Of a DNA stretch of 64,000 bases, positions 55,531 through 62,654 are shown piece after piece. Made by a program: the position numbers and the translations under genes. This DNA is from Micropterix aruncella (Eukaryota; Arthropoda; Insecta; Lepidoptera; Micropterigidae). The notes beneath the pieces were generated by a model. That model ran no database searches. It saw only the letters and a list, made by a program, of their open reading frames with translations, and was not told the origin of the DNA. The stretch spans positions 28,108,935 through 28,172,934 of the forward strand of contig OX155957.1 in assembly GCA_944548615.1 (NCBI GenBank), given 5' to 3'. The number at the start of each line of letters is the position of its first letter. Position 1 is the stretch's first letter.

Positions 55531-55937
55531 TAAGAGTTTCAAGGAGATAGGCGAGGGCAGCAAACCCCGCCCACCGCCCGGGCAGTTATAACGACGAGGG
55601 TCGTCTTGTCTGCCCGGGATGTCGTGCTACGACAACCCTACGCGTACCAGAAGGGTAAAACGCGCAGGGGGTGAAATAGGGTAAACCACCCCCCCGTACC
55701 GCCCCGAGAACCCATTTATTCAAAAAATAAAAGGTATTTACAAAAAAAAAAAAAATTACAAAATATTACAAAATTTAACGAGAAAAGAAACAACAATATC
55801 GTAAATTTAGGAGCCGGTAAGCGGGGTAGAGGACGCTCCAGAACAATGAACGTGAAGGCGCACTGTCCGTGGGCAGGTCTCGGAGCAGCCACGGGGGGGA
55901 GGAATCCCTGGATCCTGCAAGAACTCTGACTAACAGT
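55516..55937 (-). mobile_element. R1-like LINE, very short 3' copy flanked by the 15-bp site
   Basis: 55531-55922 (392 bp) is a 3' UTR bounded by ACTCTGACTAACAGT at 55516-55530 and 55923-55937. On the minus strand it includes a T-rich/A-rich stretch and AATAAATGGG. It matches 55938-56330 almost base for base, with scattered differences, so it is a second copy of the same LINE end. Confidence 0.8.
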
Positions 55938-56392
55938 TAAGAGTTTCAAGGCGATAGGTGAGGGCAGCAAACCCCGCCCACCGCCCGGGCAGTTATAACG
56001 ACGAGGGTCGTCTTGTCTGCCCGGGATGTCGTGCTACGACAACCCTGCGCGTACCAGAAGGGTAAAACGCGCAGGGGGTGAAATAGGGTAAACCACCCCC
56101 CCGTACCGCCCCGAGAACCCATTTATTCAAAAAATAAAAGGTATTTACAAAAAAAAAAAATTTACAAAATATTACAAAATTTAACGAGAAAAGAAACAAC
56201 AATATCGTAAATTTAGGAGCCGGTAAGCGGGGTAGAGGACGCTCCAGAACAATGAACGTGAAGGCGCACTGTCCGTGGGCAGGTCTCGGAGCAGCCACGG
56301 GGGGGAGGAATCCCTGGATCCCGCAAAGAACGAAACGCCCCTCGGGGCGGTAAAGAGACGGACACAAAGACGGGCACTTCGGGCTGGAAGTA
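55938..56392 (-). mobile_element. R1-like LINE, 3' UTR of the longer copy
   Basis: Continues from the coding end at 62655-63060 across the CACTA-like insertion. The last about 390 bp duplicate 55531-55922. The 261-codon frame that spans 55993-56778 crosses from this UTR into a satellite array and is not a gene. Confidence 0.8.
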
Positions 56393-56404
56393 CACTGAGA
56401 AAAC

Positions 56405-57680
56405 GAACGCTTAACCGAGTGCGATTTTAGCTCGGTTAAAAAAAAAAAGGTTAAAAATAACCAATCAAAGGTTAAAATTAACCAATCTACCGTTGTTAAA
56501 AAGTACCAAGTTGGAACTGTTACAGGGAGTGGGTTAATAATAGCACACCGATTGGTTGTTGTAGCCGAGTTAACTTGGTTACAATTAACAAACGACTCTG
56601 TAGATATTAAAGTCGCGTCTTGGCTGTTTGTAACTGCGCTGCTCGGTTGAAAATAATTGCGCGGCTCTGTTGAAAACAACAGAACGGCTCGGGTAATTTT
56701 AACCGATTTCTCGTTTATTTTCAACGGAATGGCCGAAACGGTTGAAAGTAATCGAGCAGGTTGGTAGTTACCAACCAAATGGCTCTGGTGTTTTTAACCG
56801 AGTCACTCTTTTGAAAACAACCTTACCTGATCGGTTAAATTCAACAGAGTGAGTCTGTTAAAAACAACCGAGTCGCATGGTTATCAATAACCGAGCGGAT
56901 CTGTTGAAAACAACCACCTAGGTGGTTCGGTTATTTTTAACCGATCACTCGTTTGTTTTTAACAGAGTAGCTCAGCTGTTAAAAATAACCGAGATGGTGG
57001 AGTATTTTTAACCGACCACTCGTTTGTTTTTAACAGAGTGTCTTGGCTCTGTTGAAATAACCACCGAGCGGGTTGCTTATTTTTAACCGACCGCTTATTT
57101 GTTTTTAACAGAGTGGCTCTGCTCTGTTGAAAATAACCGAGCGGGTTGGTTATTTTTAACCAACCACTCGTTTGTTTTTAACAGAATGGCTCGGCTCTGT
57201 GGAAATTAACCGAGCGGGTTGCTTATTTTTAACCGACCACTTGTTTGTTTTTAACAGAGTGGCTCGGCTCTGTTAAAAATAAACGAGCGGGTTGGTTATT
57301 TTTAACCGACCACTTGTTTGTTTTTAACAGAGTGGCTCGGCTCTGTTAAAAATAACCGAGCGGGTTGCTTATTTTTAACCGACCACTCGTTTGTTTTTAA
57401 CAGAATGGCTCGGCTCTGTTGAAATTAACCGAGCGGGTTGGTTATTTTTAACCGACCACTCGTTTGTTTTTAACAGAATTGCTCGGCTCTGTTGAAATTA
57501 GCCGAGCGGGTTGCTTATTTTTAACCGATCACTCGTTTGCTTTTAACAGAATGGCTCAGCTCTGTTGAAATTAACCGAGCGGGTTGGTTATTTTTAACCG
57601 ACCACTCTGGCTCTATTGAAAACAACCAAGTCACTCGTTTGAAAACAACGGAGTGCTTGGTTGATTTTAACAGAGTAGTA
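56405..57680. repeat. Left subterminal AACCGAG array
   Basis: About 60-bp units repeating GGTTATTTTTAACCGACCAC, TCGTTTGTTTTTAACAGA and GTGGCTCGGCTCTGTT. Each unit is itself partly palindromic (TTATTTTTAACC against GGTTAAAAATAA), and the most regular part is 57060-57600. Confidence 0.92.
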
Positions 57681-58073
57681 CGAGCTTATTAATACGGTTC
57701 TTTGCAGAAGCCGCCATTGCAGTTTTGTCAGTGCATCGTATAGGTGGTAGTTTCAGTTGTTTCGTTGTTTTATGCCGTCTTCTAAATTCTTATCAAACTA
57801 ACTCCAAAAACGACCTGGCAGAAATGCATCGTCAATCAGTGATTACCATAAAATAACCAAAAGAAGACTTGCAAGCCTGGGTAATTGACAGTTCCGTTCC
57901 GCTTTTTATGTTTCACCGCGGCCAGTCGCGGCGTCGTCATGGAAGTACTTTACGAACTGTGTATTCATAGTTATTATATTGCGTACGAAAAGTGATAAAA
58001 ACAAAGTGCATTCTGATCTGAAACATTTCGGAATTGTGAGTTTCGTGCCGAATCAAGTCAGATTGAGATCAAA

Positions 58074-60368
58074 ATGGCGGATGATGACGTCGCCATTCTT
58101 CTACGCGAATGGGGACTTGAACAATACATCGACAAATTTAATGGTGAGTGATTGCCTAAACTAAATTTAATCTAAATATTTATTATGTCACCCCTAAGCT
58201 GGAAATGCGGATTGCGGCCAGCATCTTGGGACAATCGATAGGCTCTAGCTATATATAGTGTATTAAAGCTATTTCGGAATAATGGCGCATTGCTCAAAGT
58301 GGCTTTGACACGGACAATAATTTTGGATGATACGAGTGATTTTTATCAATGTGGGCGTTGATTTTTAATCCTAAATACCGCACATAAAAAACATATGTTT
58401 TTATTATGGATATTTGCTCAATCCTGTTATAATTTCTATTCATAATAATCAGGACTTAGGTATACTTAATATATTTTTTATTGTTACAGAAAATCAAATA
58501 ACGTCATTTTCATTGGCATTATTGGGGCCACTAGAAATAAAAGAATTAATTCCCTTAGTTGGACATCGAGCAATATTGATCAAAAACTTGGAAGGATGGC
58601 GAAGATCTATGTATCCAGAGGCGGAAAGCATTAACGTGAGTGGTTTTGCATAATAAATAAATATATAAAATTAGACACAGTGGCAGCGAAACGGCTAAAT
58701 ACTAACAACATTAACGTTTTTTTTACAGATATTTGAAGTTCAATCACCGGCCCCCCAAAATGTTAGTTTTTCGTTAACTGACTTATTGGACTTGAACAAA
58801 TCCCAACCATCGACACCAGAAATCTGAACTTCGGGTACGTCTCTACTACATAAAACCACACTATCAGCGTCGACATCAAAGCAGTCAATCGAACTTCCAT
58901 CTACATCTGGCGAATCACAGCACCAAAATACCAAGGTTCGTGTTGTCCATTTTTTATACGACATAGGTACCTAACTCAATTTTAATTTTGTGTATATCTA
59001 TACTTTTTTATAGACCCTAAATCAACTTCTTCAAAGCACTTTAGAAGGCAGGGGTTTGCTCACGTTGTGTGGTCAAAATACTCCATTGGACAACAAGGCA
59101 AGACTTCATTTGGTACGAATTATTTCGACGTCAATTTTATTACAAGATCCAGAAGTTCATGTAACTGCTAAAGTCTACGGCAAGTGGGCATATGAAATTG
59201 TGCAGTTATTCCCAGCTGAAAAAAAATCAGTCTATTTTCACTTCAAAATAGTTGAATCTGGGTACGGCATAACCAACAGATTGGGAGGAAAATTGCCTGA
59301 TCAAGTGCACAATTTAAAGAGGAAATACAGACAAACTGGTATAATAGCAAGACGAGAGCGGTCAATATCGTCATCCGTATCGTCGAGGACTTCAACTCAA
59401 TCCCAGCCGGAAAGTATAGAACGTCACTCACGCCTACCAGAACATTTAGAAAAAAAAAACAGAGGACGAAGATTCAGTCGAAGACAATATTCTTTGGCTG
59501 AAAAATTCTAGCGACCCCTGGGTGACGGTGGAAGACAAGTGGAAGAAAACGACATGGACCAGGTTACAACAATTGGCTTTAAACAATTCAATACAGAAAT
59601 ATTTTGACGATTTTCCTGCACTACAGAAACCTCTCGGTTATGTTCTTGTAAGTATGAAATTGTATTGTAATATCTCAGATATTATTTTCTCGTCTACAAT
59701 AATTACTTTTTGCAGCTGGAAAACGACTTTGAGTCTATCTACGCTGGCAACACAAGAAGTTTGGTAGAAGGTTTCCCTGTTCATAAAAAAAAACTCTTCG
59801 ATTTGGCGGCCAAACGATCCTCCGGTAGAGACAAATACCTGCAGCATCTTCTATCCATGGCAGATGGTAGGTTTGTTTTATTCCTTGTACTGCAAATAGG
59901 ATTCCATTTAATATATGCATATCATTCGCACGGCGTCTTGCGAAAGTTGAGGTCTTCACATAGAGTCTTCAGTGATGCTCTCTAAACTACAATCGATTCT
60001 ACATTTTAATTTTTCAGCTGTTGAAGAAACGTCAAACATTGCAGGGCTTCTTCTCATTCCTTCGCTTTTGTCAGTCTCCACCTTGCGTCTCAAGGGATGC
60101 ATCAAGAAAGTGTGGCGGCCATCGAAATCAGAAGTGCGAGAAGGTTTCGTGATACACTTCAACAGCGATGCAGAGATAAAGCAGGTGCTCGAAGACAGAC
60201 GTAAGAAATTGTCAAATTTTGGTCTCACTCTCCAACCACTCGTGGTCATAGTAGGTCCAACGCCCGGCGAAATTTCTTCATATATAATCGTCATCAATAA
60301 TGCTATGTATTTATTGCCCAACATTTTGTCCGCTATTGATGTCTGTTTTAAATGTATATGGGCCATAG
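58074..60368 (+). pseudogene. SAM-domain gene inside the CACTA-like element, disrupted
   Basis: Six exons with GT-AG borders: 58074-58143, 58490-58635, 58729-58935, 59014-59647, 59716-59866 and 60018 to about 60368. Start MADDDVAILLREWGLEQYI; exons 1-2 form a SAM-like fold ending in GPLEIKELIPLVGHRAILIK. Exon 4 has LLTLCGQNTPLDNKARLHLV, a lysine-rich linker and, after the run, WVTVEDKWKKTTWTRL. Three lesions: TGA in frame at 58825-58827; ten A at 59450-59459, where the downstream frame fits nine; and a SINE cutting the last exon. Similar multi-copy SAM proteins occur in many animals; function unknown. The first two lesions could be base-calling errors. Without them about 515 residues would be open. 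Confidence 0.7.
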
Positions 60369-60370
60369 GG

Positions 60371-60622
60371 ATACGGCCCGGTGGCATAGTGGTTAGGTCG
60401 CCTGATCTTACATTGTAAGGTTCCGGATTCGATTCCCGCCTGGGTCACCACTTTCCGTTGTGTTAAATTAAAAGAATTGCATTTAAATTCTGTTGATACA
60501 AGTAATAACAAGACACACATGTTACACGCACATATACATATAAACACTTCATAGTGGGGTTGGTTGTAAGAGATTTTCTATGATAATAAACCCGCCCATT
60601 GTGAAATTTCACAATAAAGAGT
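60371..60622 (+). mobile_element. tRNA-derived SINE
   Basis: Head with A box TGGCATAGTGG at 60382-60392 and B box GGATTCGATTCCC at 60425-60437, then a CACCA-like end and an unrelated body. The whole does not fold as a normal tRNA (no proper anticodon arm), so it is a SINE. It interrupts the last exon of the SAM gene. Clear target duplications were not found. Confidence 0.75.
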
Positions 60623-61829
60623 AGAAGCATCCGAAACCACTGATGATAGAGAAAAAATATAGAAAGGAGTATCGGAGTCTCGGGTTTTGTAGTTATGAAA
60701 ATTTCATTTAATGGTTTTCAATCTAAATTTCAATTAAAATTTAAATCAACATTTCAATAATGGTATTTACTTTCCTGTAAAACACAATGCGTAGATAGGT
60801 ATGTCTCTTAAAAATCTTAAAGCGAAGGTGAATGTCATTTTCTTGACGTTCATGTTGAATTAATTAAACAACCAAAGCAGCAAATGACTATGATATTTTG
60901 TAAATAAAACATACTTATCGCTTGCACTTGCGATTTTACAAAAAAGACTTTCATGAAAACCATAAATGCAATTTTTCATAACTCCAAAATCGGTTGCAAG
61001 ACTTTTTCCCACAATTTTTCTTGCGGCTTCTTATCTCCCCATAAGTTTGCTAAATTTAAAACTCAACCTGCATAAGACAACTACAGTCTGATAGTAGTTT
61101 TCATTTGATCGTCGATATAAATACACTTCCTAACTGACAAAACAGATGCTTTGTAACCCACAGTTCTGTGGCTTGCAAAGCATCTCTTTGTAAGTACATA
61201 GAAGCGTATATATGAAACGGTAAAAGAAACCGCAATCAGGACCTCAACTAGCTTTTTCTGGAATTCTCACATTTTTTGTTTGTAATAAATAATGTAAATA
61301 ATTGTTATAATTGTAATAAATAATTGTAAATAATGACAATGAATCTCTTATGTTTACGCACGTCTACATTCAAAGGGCAATAAAATATACATAATTGTAT
61401 TGTGATTACACTAAATTTTATTATGATTTATTTTATATACTTGTATTGGGCTCACACTAAACTTTATTGTGATTTATTTAAATATATTTACAATTTGTGT
61501 TAATAAACGTGGTTAATATGTGAAAACAATATTTGTAAATTTAAATTACATTTCAATAAACGCTCATCTTACAGAATTATGTAAGTTGTGTTTTCTTTCA
61601 TAGCATATATAGGTATATACTATACACTTTATTGCAACAGGTCACCTGCATCACTGCTGTCACTGATTAACCTGGTTCCAGTAGCTGCTTATCACTCGGT
61701 TGCTAACTGGGTGCCCTGTCGATTCCTGTATCTTTGTGGAGGTGTTTCTACAGTAATGTAGATAAACCTCTTAAATGATGTAGAAATTGAAAGGCCATCC
61801 CGTAAGCAGATGTGAGATACTTACTTTCA
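60623..61829. other. AT-rich interior of the CACTA-like element
   Basis: No transposase motif or long frame on either strand. It may contain the 3' UTR of the SAM gene. Confidence 0.5.
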
Positions 61830-62645
61830 ACCGATTAGGTTAGTTACGTTTAACCGAGTAGGTTGGTAAAATTTAGCCGAGCAGGCCGGTTACTTTTAAC
61901 CTAGTTGGCTAGGTTACTTTTAACCGAGAAGGTCGGTTATTTTTAACCAAGTTGGCTAGGTTACTTTTAACCGAGAAGGTCGGTTATTTTTAACCAAGTT
62001 GGCTAGGTTACTTTTAACCGAGAAGGTCGGTTATTTTTAACCAAGTTGGCTAGGTTACTTTTAACAGAGTATGTCGGAAACTTTTAACCGTGTAGGTCGG
62101 TTACTTTCAACCGAGTAGGTTTGTTAAATTTAACCGAGTAGGTTGGCAACATTAAGCCGATCAGGTCGGTTATTATTAACAAAGTACGTTTGTAAGATAT
62201 AGTCAAGCAGTTCGTCTAATTTCAACCGAGTAGGTTAGTTACGTATAACCAAGTACGTTTGTAAGATTTAGCCAAGCAGTTCGGCTAATTTCAACCGAGT
62301 AGGTTAGTTACGTTTAACCAAGTAGATTGGCAATATTTAACCGAGCAGGTTGGCCATATTTAACTGGGCAGGCCGGTTAATTTTAACCGAGTAGGTTATT
62401 ATTTATAACCAAGCAAGTTTGCAATATTTAACCAAGTAGATGAGTTACTTTAAACCAAGTAGGTTGGCTACCATAACCGACCATTGAAGGTCATCAAGTA
62501 ACAGATTAGGTGGGTTAATTTTAACCGAGTGTATTTAACCAAATTGAGTTGGTTATTATTAGCAACGGAGGTTGCAGGTGCTATATTAACAGTATGACTT
62601 GGTTGTTTTTAGCAGTAAATTGGTTGTTTTTAGCGTAGACGTTTT
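61830..62645. repeat. Right subterminal AACCGAG array
   Basis: Units of about 30 bp with AACCGAGNAGGTYGGTTA. A regular 54-bp period at 61895-62060 is made of AACCGAGAAGGTCGGTTATT plus AACCAAGTTGGCTAGGTTAC. Confidence 0.92.
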
Positions 62646-62654
62646 CTCAGTGTA

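Follow-up and report, generated by a model that had tools for sequence, protein, structure and literature searches.

A SAM/DUF4769 gene, favoured as standard equipment, in a CMCT-group DNA transposon of the lepidopteran Micropterix aruncella

CACTA (En/Spm) transposons of plants have CACT termini, 13-bp terminal inverted repeats (TIRs) and asymmetric, family-specific subterminal repeats, encode two proteins, and give rise to deletion derivatives (PMC2613891, PMC1636069). These family-specific repeats are described as binding sites of TnpA-type proteins, a group with little mutual similarity, whereas plant CACTA transposases are conserved (PMC2613891). The SmTRC1/TRC elements of Schistosoma, Tribolium and Aedes have termini that start with CCC, 2-bp target duplications and similarity to Transposase_21; the passages on TRC in this source make no mention of a SAM protein (PMC1636069). 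The wider CACTA/EnSpm-Mirage-Chapaev-Transib (CMCT) clade, including Transib, RAG1 and the fungal ESTA families with their TET/JBP gene, is characterized by C(2)C and H(3-4)H between the second D and the last E of the transposase, by mostly 5'-CA..TG-3' ends, and by duplications of 2-5 bp (PMC12730594). In the sea urchin RAG1-RAG2 transposons (TransibSU), a RAG1-like transposase is accompanied by a RAG2-like protein encoded head to head with it, RAG2 consisting of a beta-propeller and a PHD finger (PMC4411706). Here, we describe an element at positions 56393-62652 of a 64,000-nucleotide stretch of the Micropterix aruncella genome (assembly GCA_944548615.1, contig OX155957.1, 28,108,935 to 28,172,934, forward strand), hereafter the window, and the SAM-domain gene within it. 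An earlier note had proposed that this segment is a CACTA-like mobile unit carrying a spliced SAM gene between two AACCGAG arrays.

We consider it highly probable, as part of the overall explanation developed below, that the window element is non-autonomous, an internally deleted derivative of an insect DNA transposon that belongs to the CMCT group and was recently active. The full copies measure approximately 9.1 kb, in the order TIR, left array, SAM/DUF4769 gene, transposase gene, right array, TIR. The element shares with plant En/Spm all of the features listed above, but its target duplications are 2 bp rather than 3 bp, and its second protein is of the SAM/DUF4769 type, is encoded upstream of the transposase, and can be likened to TnpA by description only. 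By analogy, the insect element may function like a plant-type CACTA. Short duplications, an animal host and Transposase_21 similarity are common to TRC, from which the element differs in its termini and, by description only, in its proteins. The C/H motifs of the transposase, the CA..TG ends and the target length are those of ESTA and other CMCT elements, but here the hosts are insects and the partner is a SAM protein. A predicted RAG1/Transib-like core and a second protein recall TransibSU, but the partner is not RAG2-like and the two genes stand in tandem on one strand.

The 13-bp TIR, CACTGAGAAAACG, is exact at 56393-56405 (plus strand) and 62640-62652 (minus strand), its only two exact occurrences in the window. 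Searches of the 1.08-Gb genome with the outermost 100 bp, window copy counted, returned at least 40 matches to the left end (11 identical) and at least 35 to the right end (26 identical). These ends pair into 33 elements, with 7 left and 2 right ends unpaired; 16 elements measure 5.9-6.3 kb, one 7.1 kb, 13 9.0-9.9 kb, and three 14.6-22.6 kb. The three longest (C3:1863539-1878136, C32:11274400-11290919 and C5:8169685-8192251; 14.6, 16.5 and 22.6 kb) may hold nested insertions. In 21 copies read for target duplications, 20 fetched from the genome plus the window copy, the flanking 2-mers are equal in every case and the flanking 3- to 7-mers in none, defining a 2-bp target duplication; two of two family B copies (see below) have one as well. 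Copies L009 and L022, whose ends are inexact, are among these 21 but were left out of the length/junction, SAM-translation and variation comparisons. TA flanks both ends of the window copy (56391-56392 and 62653-62654), as the earlier note had observed, but is not obligatory: the duplicated dinucleotides are TA in nine copies, CA in seven, TT and TG in two each, and CT in one, and since they vary in this way TA is a frequent target rather than a rule. Pyrimidine-purine steps account for 18 of the 21.

When the window flanks are joined through a single TA, all 40 scored places (from 1209 first-look candidates) match over 240/240 bases at 99%, which bears out that the outer repeat fits cleanly around the insertion. 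Two of these 40 sites, L046 and L047, were read at the join, and both contain the single TA on which the left duplication was placed. The end of the outer repeat appears by eye in two tandem copies beside the insertion, at about 55801-55920 and 56213-56330 (window 55801-56330). With 33 paired copies, 2-bp duplications and empty sites, the element is recently mobile, and the proposal of a CACTA-like mobile unit is upheld. Both outcomes that the earlier note named as refuting it, ends unique in the genome and empty sites at other positions, are contradicted by these results.

Comparison with the 9-kb copies places a deletion junction at 60367-60377, where the longer copies carry about 2.9 kb more, a segment that holds the last part of the SAM gene as well as the transposase gene. 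This junction is common to the other six-kb copies fetched (six plus L022), and a TGA at SAM codon 105 is common to all eight six-kb copies read (L022 included) of the 16 found. The shared deletion and shared TGA indicate that the six-kb copies descend from one defective founder that went on multiplying, a history that implies help in trans; we infer that this lineage spreads on proteins supplied by other copies. A tRNA-like, short interspersed element-like sequence at 60375-60450, noted by eye, starts nearly at the junction, and alignment of the 9-kb copies with the window copy resumes about 260 bp past the transposase frame.

The SAM/DUF4769 gene of full copies is predicted to have six exons, with consensus splice borders at its introns. 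On the plus strand of the window these lie at 58074-58143 (first part of the SAM domain), 58490-58635 (remainder of the domain), 58729-58935 (with the premature TGA at 58825-58827), 59014-59647, 59716-59866 and 60018-60367. The spliced gene named in the earlier note is thus retained as a prediction, but the window copy is broken by the TGA, by a frameshift within an A-run of exon 4, and by loss of the C-terminal end at the junction, which cuts the last exon. The SAM domain is recognized by both Pfam score and fold, and its best matches among solved structures are tankyrase SAM domains. A DUF4769 (PF15992) match covers exons 3-4, the window protein scoring 35.3 bits against a gathering score of 23.9; among its relatives the hoverfly protein P0001 reaches 14.2 bits, under the cut-off, and the other nine proteins scanned have no DUF4769 match. 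P0001, from Eupeodes corollae, is the closest SAM protein found (50%).

The statement that the element contains no transposase motifs is true of the deleted window copy, but the 9-kb copies encode a DDE transposase, an outcome that a check proposed in the earlier note had anticipated. Residues D335, D429, C449/C452, H653/H657 and E677 are present in 70 of 70 alignment rows, the catalytic D, D and E having been picked by position and structure model. The termini, CACTG..CAGTG in family A (the family of the window copy), fit the CA..TG pattern of the clade, the target length falls within 2-5 bp, and the predicted structure contains a RAG1/Transib-like catalytic core. Judged by signature, ends and target length, the element family belongs to the CMCT clade, its transposase core being RAG1-like by prediction. 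Narrower assignments fit less well. Subterminal repeats are shared with strict plant-type En/Spm, but a 3-bp duplication was found in 0 of 21 copies and Transposase_21 falls under its gathering score. TRC is set aside by termini that show CACT in place of CCC at all ends read, two each for families A and B and the right one for C and D. Transib proper makes 5-bp target duplications, and flanking 5-mers were equal in 0/21 copies against 21/21 for 2-mers. The closest named full-length transposase is Eupeodes corollae P0005 (62%), followed by that of the moth Cydia (59%); that the hoverfly is closer is a possible lead to horizontal transfer. A further transposase, P0004, is 96% identical to that of family A and comes from a 3.5-kb contig in a different public assembly; it could stem from the same species, a relative or horizontal transfer.

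The earlier note left open whether the SAM gene is an accessory gene of the transposon group or was captured. Genome searches with SAM exon 4 and the transposase revealed, beside family A, families B, C and D, whose transposases are 46-47%, 45-46% and 42% identical to that of A and, by alignment, 39-47% identical among all four. A SAM exon lies upstream, on the same strand and within 8 kb, at 51 of the 53 transposase matches scored (of 380 candidates). At one of the two exceptions, C11:33002687 of family B, the exon is present (L050) but was absent from the listed exon-4 matches. In one copy per family, the likely transposase ATG follows the SAM stop at 13 or 64 bp (family A), 55 bp (family B), 5 bp (family C) and -23 bp (family D). 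Such short spacing indicates a compact two-gene arrangement in each of the four families; reinitiation or alternative splicing on a two-gene message may yield the transposase. In families A, B and C, the SAM domain is divided between two frames, with the break at roughly the same position; its first part is weak in C (E 0.03).

The linkage extends to other insects. By reading, six public gene models combine portions of the two proteins, arranged in the order seen here: Aphis craccivora P0068 and P0077, Semiaphis heraclei P0096 and P0101, Spodoptera exigua P0083, and Brenthis ino P0085. All except P0077 aligned with P0001; the Pfam SAM domain is found in P0096, P0101 and P0085 (the last under the cut-off), and P0068 and P0077 have no SAM-domain part. 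In eight linked pairs, SAM identity correlates with transposase identity (r 0.79, a value matched by 6 of 5000 permutations). Conservation is lower in the SAM protein than in the transposase in all 28 comparisons (mean 32% versus 43%), the SAM sequences of B, C and D being the exon-4 and last-exon frames only. Among the literature matches listed, no paper joins SAM proteins with CACTA elements. From sequence comparison we therefore favour the SAM gene as standard accessory equipment of the transposon group. That it is instead a host gene captured by a single transposon family appears exceedingly improbable. The gene is spliced, its best solved matches are tankyrase domains, and SAM domains are common modules in animals, as capture would have it; against this stand its one place and strand in four diverged families, the pairing in aphids, a moth and a butterfly, the tracking of transposase distances by SAM distances, and a split point about equal in A, B and, weakly, C.

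In family D (e.g. L031 at C11:9918182 and L032 at C9:21381702), whose right end is CACTCAGAAAAAAA, 70 of the 78 exon-4 matches among those listed have equal bit scores and two copies are identical across 5678 bp, and hence a very recent burst in this genome is indicated.

Both AACCGAG arrays of the earlier note are present, as AACC(G/A)A motifs at 56413-57663 and 61829-62625, but the arms are not mirror images: motifs run mostly in the same direction in both (25 plus and 11 minus on the left, 22 and 8 on the right). Motif density is 27.3/kb in the left arm and 35.7/kb in the right, compared with 1.7/kb between them. The left array, which contains a 73-bp higher-order repeat, stops some 400 bp before the SAM start codon. 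Motifs on the same strand are most often 23 bp apart in both A arms and the B right arm, and 20 bp apart in the B left arm. With both arms read in A and B and right arms in C and D, TAACCGA occurs 22 and 14 times in the arms of A and never in those of B, C or D, and TAGCTAAA occurs 12 and 12 times in those of B and never in the other families. Left and right arms resemble each other above all 200 dinucleotide-preserving shuffles within A and within B, and in the four A-versus-B pairings tested the likeness is at or below the shuffled level. Tandem Repeats Finder reports long-unit repeats in the right arms of C (89 bp) and D (76 bp). The suggestion that the arrays are protein-binding platforms, made by analogy with plants, is plausible since the motifs are family-specific and shared by both ends in A and B; binding itself is a candidate function, and the arrays are probably docking sites for a protein.

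We give roughly even credence to the following mechanism, modelled on plant elements: the SAM/DUF4769 protein would bind the motif repeated in the arms of its own family, oligomerize through its SAM domain, pair both element ends, and recruit the transposase, which would cut at CACTG, a role like that of TnpA beside TnpD. A stronger version seems unlikely to us, in which a SAM polymer along the family-specific arrays (with a step of about 23 bp in A and B) bridges the ends as a synaptic filament and so places the transposase, which would end in a BAH-like module that reads chromatin, in a distinct insect RAG1-fold lineage. If true, such a two-protein machine would be an animal counterpart of plant TnpA and of RAG2 that arose independently, and its array and reader would evolve together.

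Several observations weigh against these interpretations. Beyond its SAM domain, the SAM protein matched no DNA-binding fold in a model from a nine-sequence alignment (mean pLDDT 68.6); SAM exons were not recognized in family D; and at the second exception, C21:24619747, a shortened family C relative, the 3.2 kb read upstream hold no SAM frame of 110 aa or more. Pfam Transposase_21 scores 15.8 bits against a cut-off of 28.6. Variable codons in the SAM part of nine-kb copies (4 non-synonymous, 2 synonymous) give no sign of constraint, and across both size classes the SAM part differs at 10.5/kb versus 8.0 in the remaining coding sequence. Furthermore, the transposase N-terminus has zinc-finger-like Cys/His sets, one invariant and the other nearly so, and this region could itself bind the arrays. 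A division of labor in which the transposase fingers read the arrays, and the SAM protein relieves silencing, regulates a left-arm promoter or picks targets, is possible, if somewhat doubtful: the position of the left array before the SAM start codon agrees with promoter control, and plant TnpA is described as acting on the element promoter as well (PMC1636069), but the faster-evolving partner is the SAM protein, as would be expected, indirectly, of an array reader.

Replication slippage near the ends, leaving arrays with no binding role, is improbable. Tandem repeats can expand passively, and those of the C and D right arms may be of this kind, but passive slippage would not match both ends, as in A and B, with motifs unrelated between families. 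We likewise think it improbable that the six-kb lineage makes a SAM-only peptide acting as a dominant-negative regulator, for which the truncated KP repressor of the P element is a parallel. The 104-aa SAM frame is intact in all seven six-kb copies translated, but these copies are too young to reveal selection (2 non-synonymous and no synonymous variable codons). SAM genes within one size class differ by about 0.4-1%. Segregating sites number 46.0/kb in introns, 19.1 in the SAM-coding part and 24.4 in other coding sequence of 12 nine-kb copies, and 20.4, 9.6 and 14.6 in seven six-kb copies; because the broken six-kb copies show the intron excess too, it is weak evidence of recent constraint. 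That the SAM gene is kept is judged not from these counts but from the frames open across four diverged families.

These results place in transposons an insect SAM protein family with no prior explanation, together with members of DUF4769, a Pfam domain of unknown function. SAM/DUF4769 genes may be counted as host genes in genome papers; in a ladybird, DUF4769 is listed with the families whose copy number changed (+3) and whose selection test was significant (PMC8805230), a change that we infer to be transposon-derived. The element also adds a two-gene transposon with a predicted RAG1-like core. Finally, the presence of four families in one genome allows array motif and candidate reader to be compared from family to family, making CACTA-type end recognition directly testable in animals.
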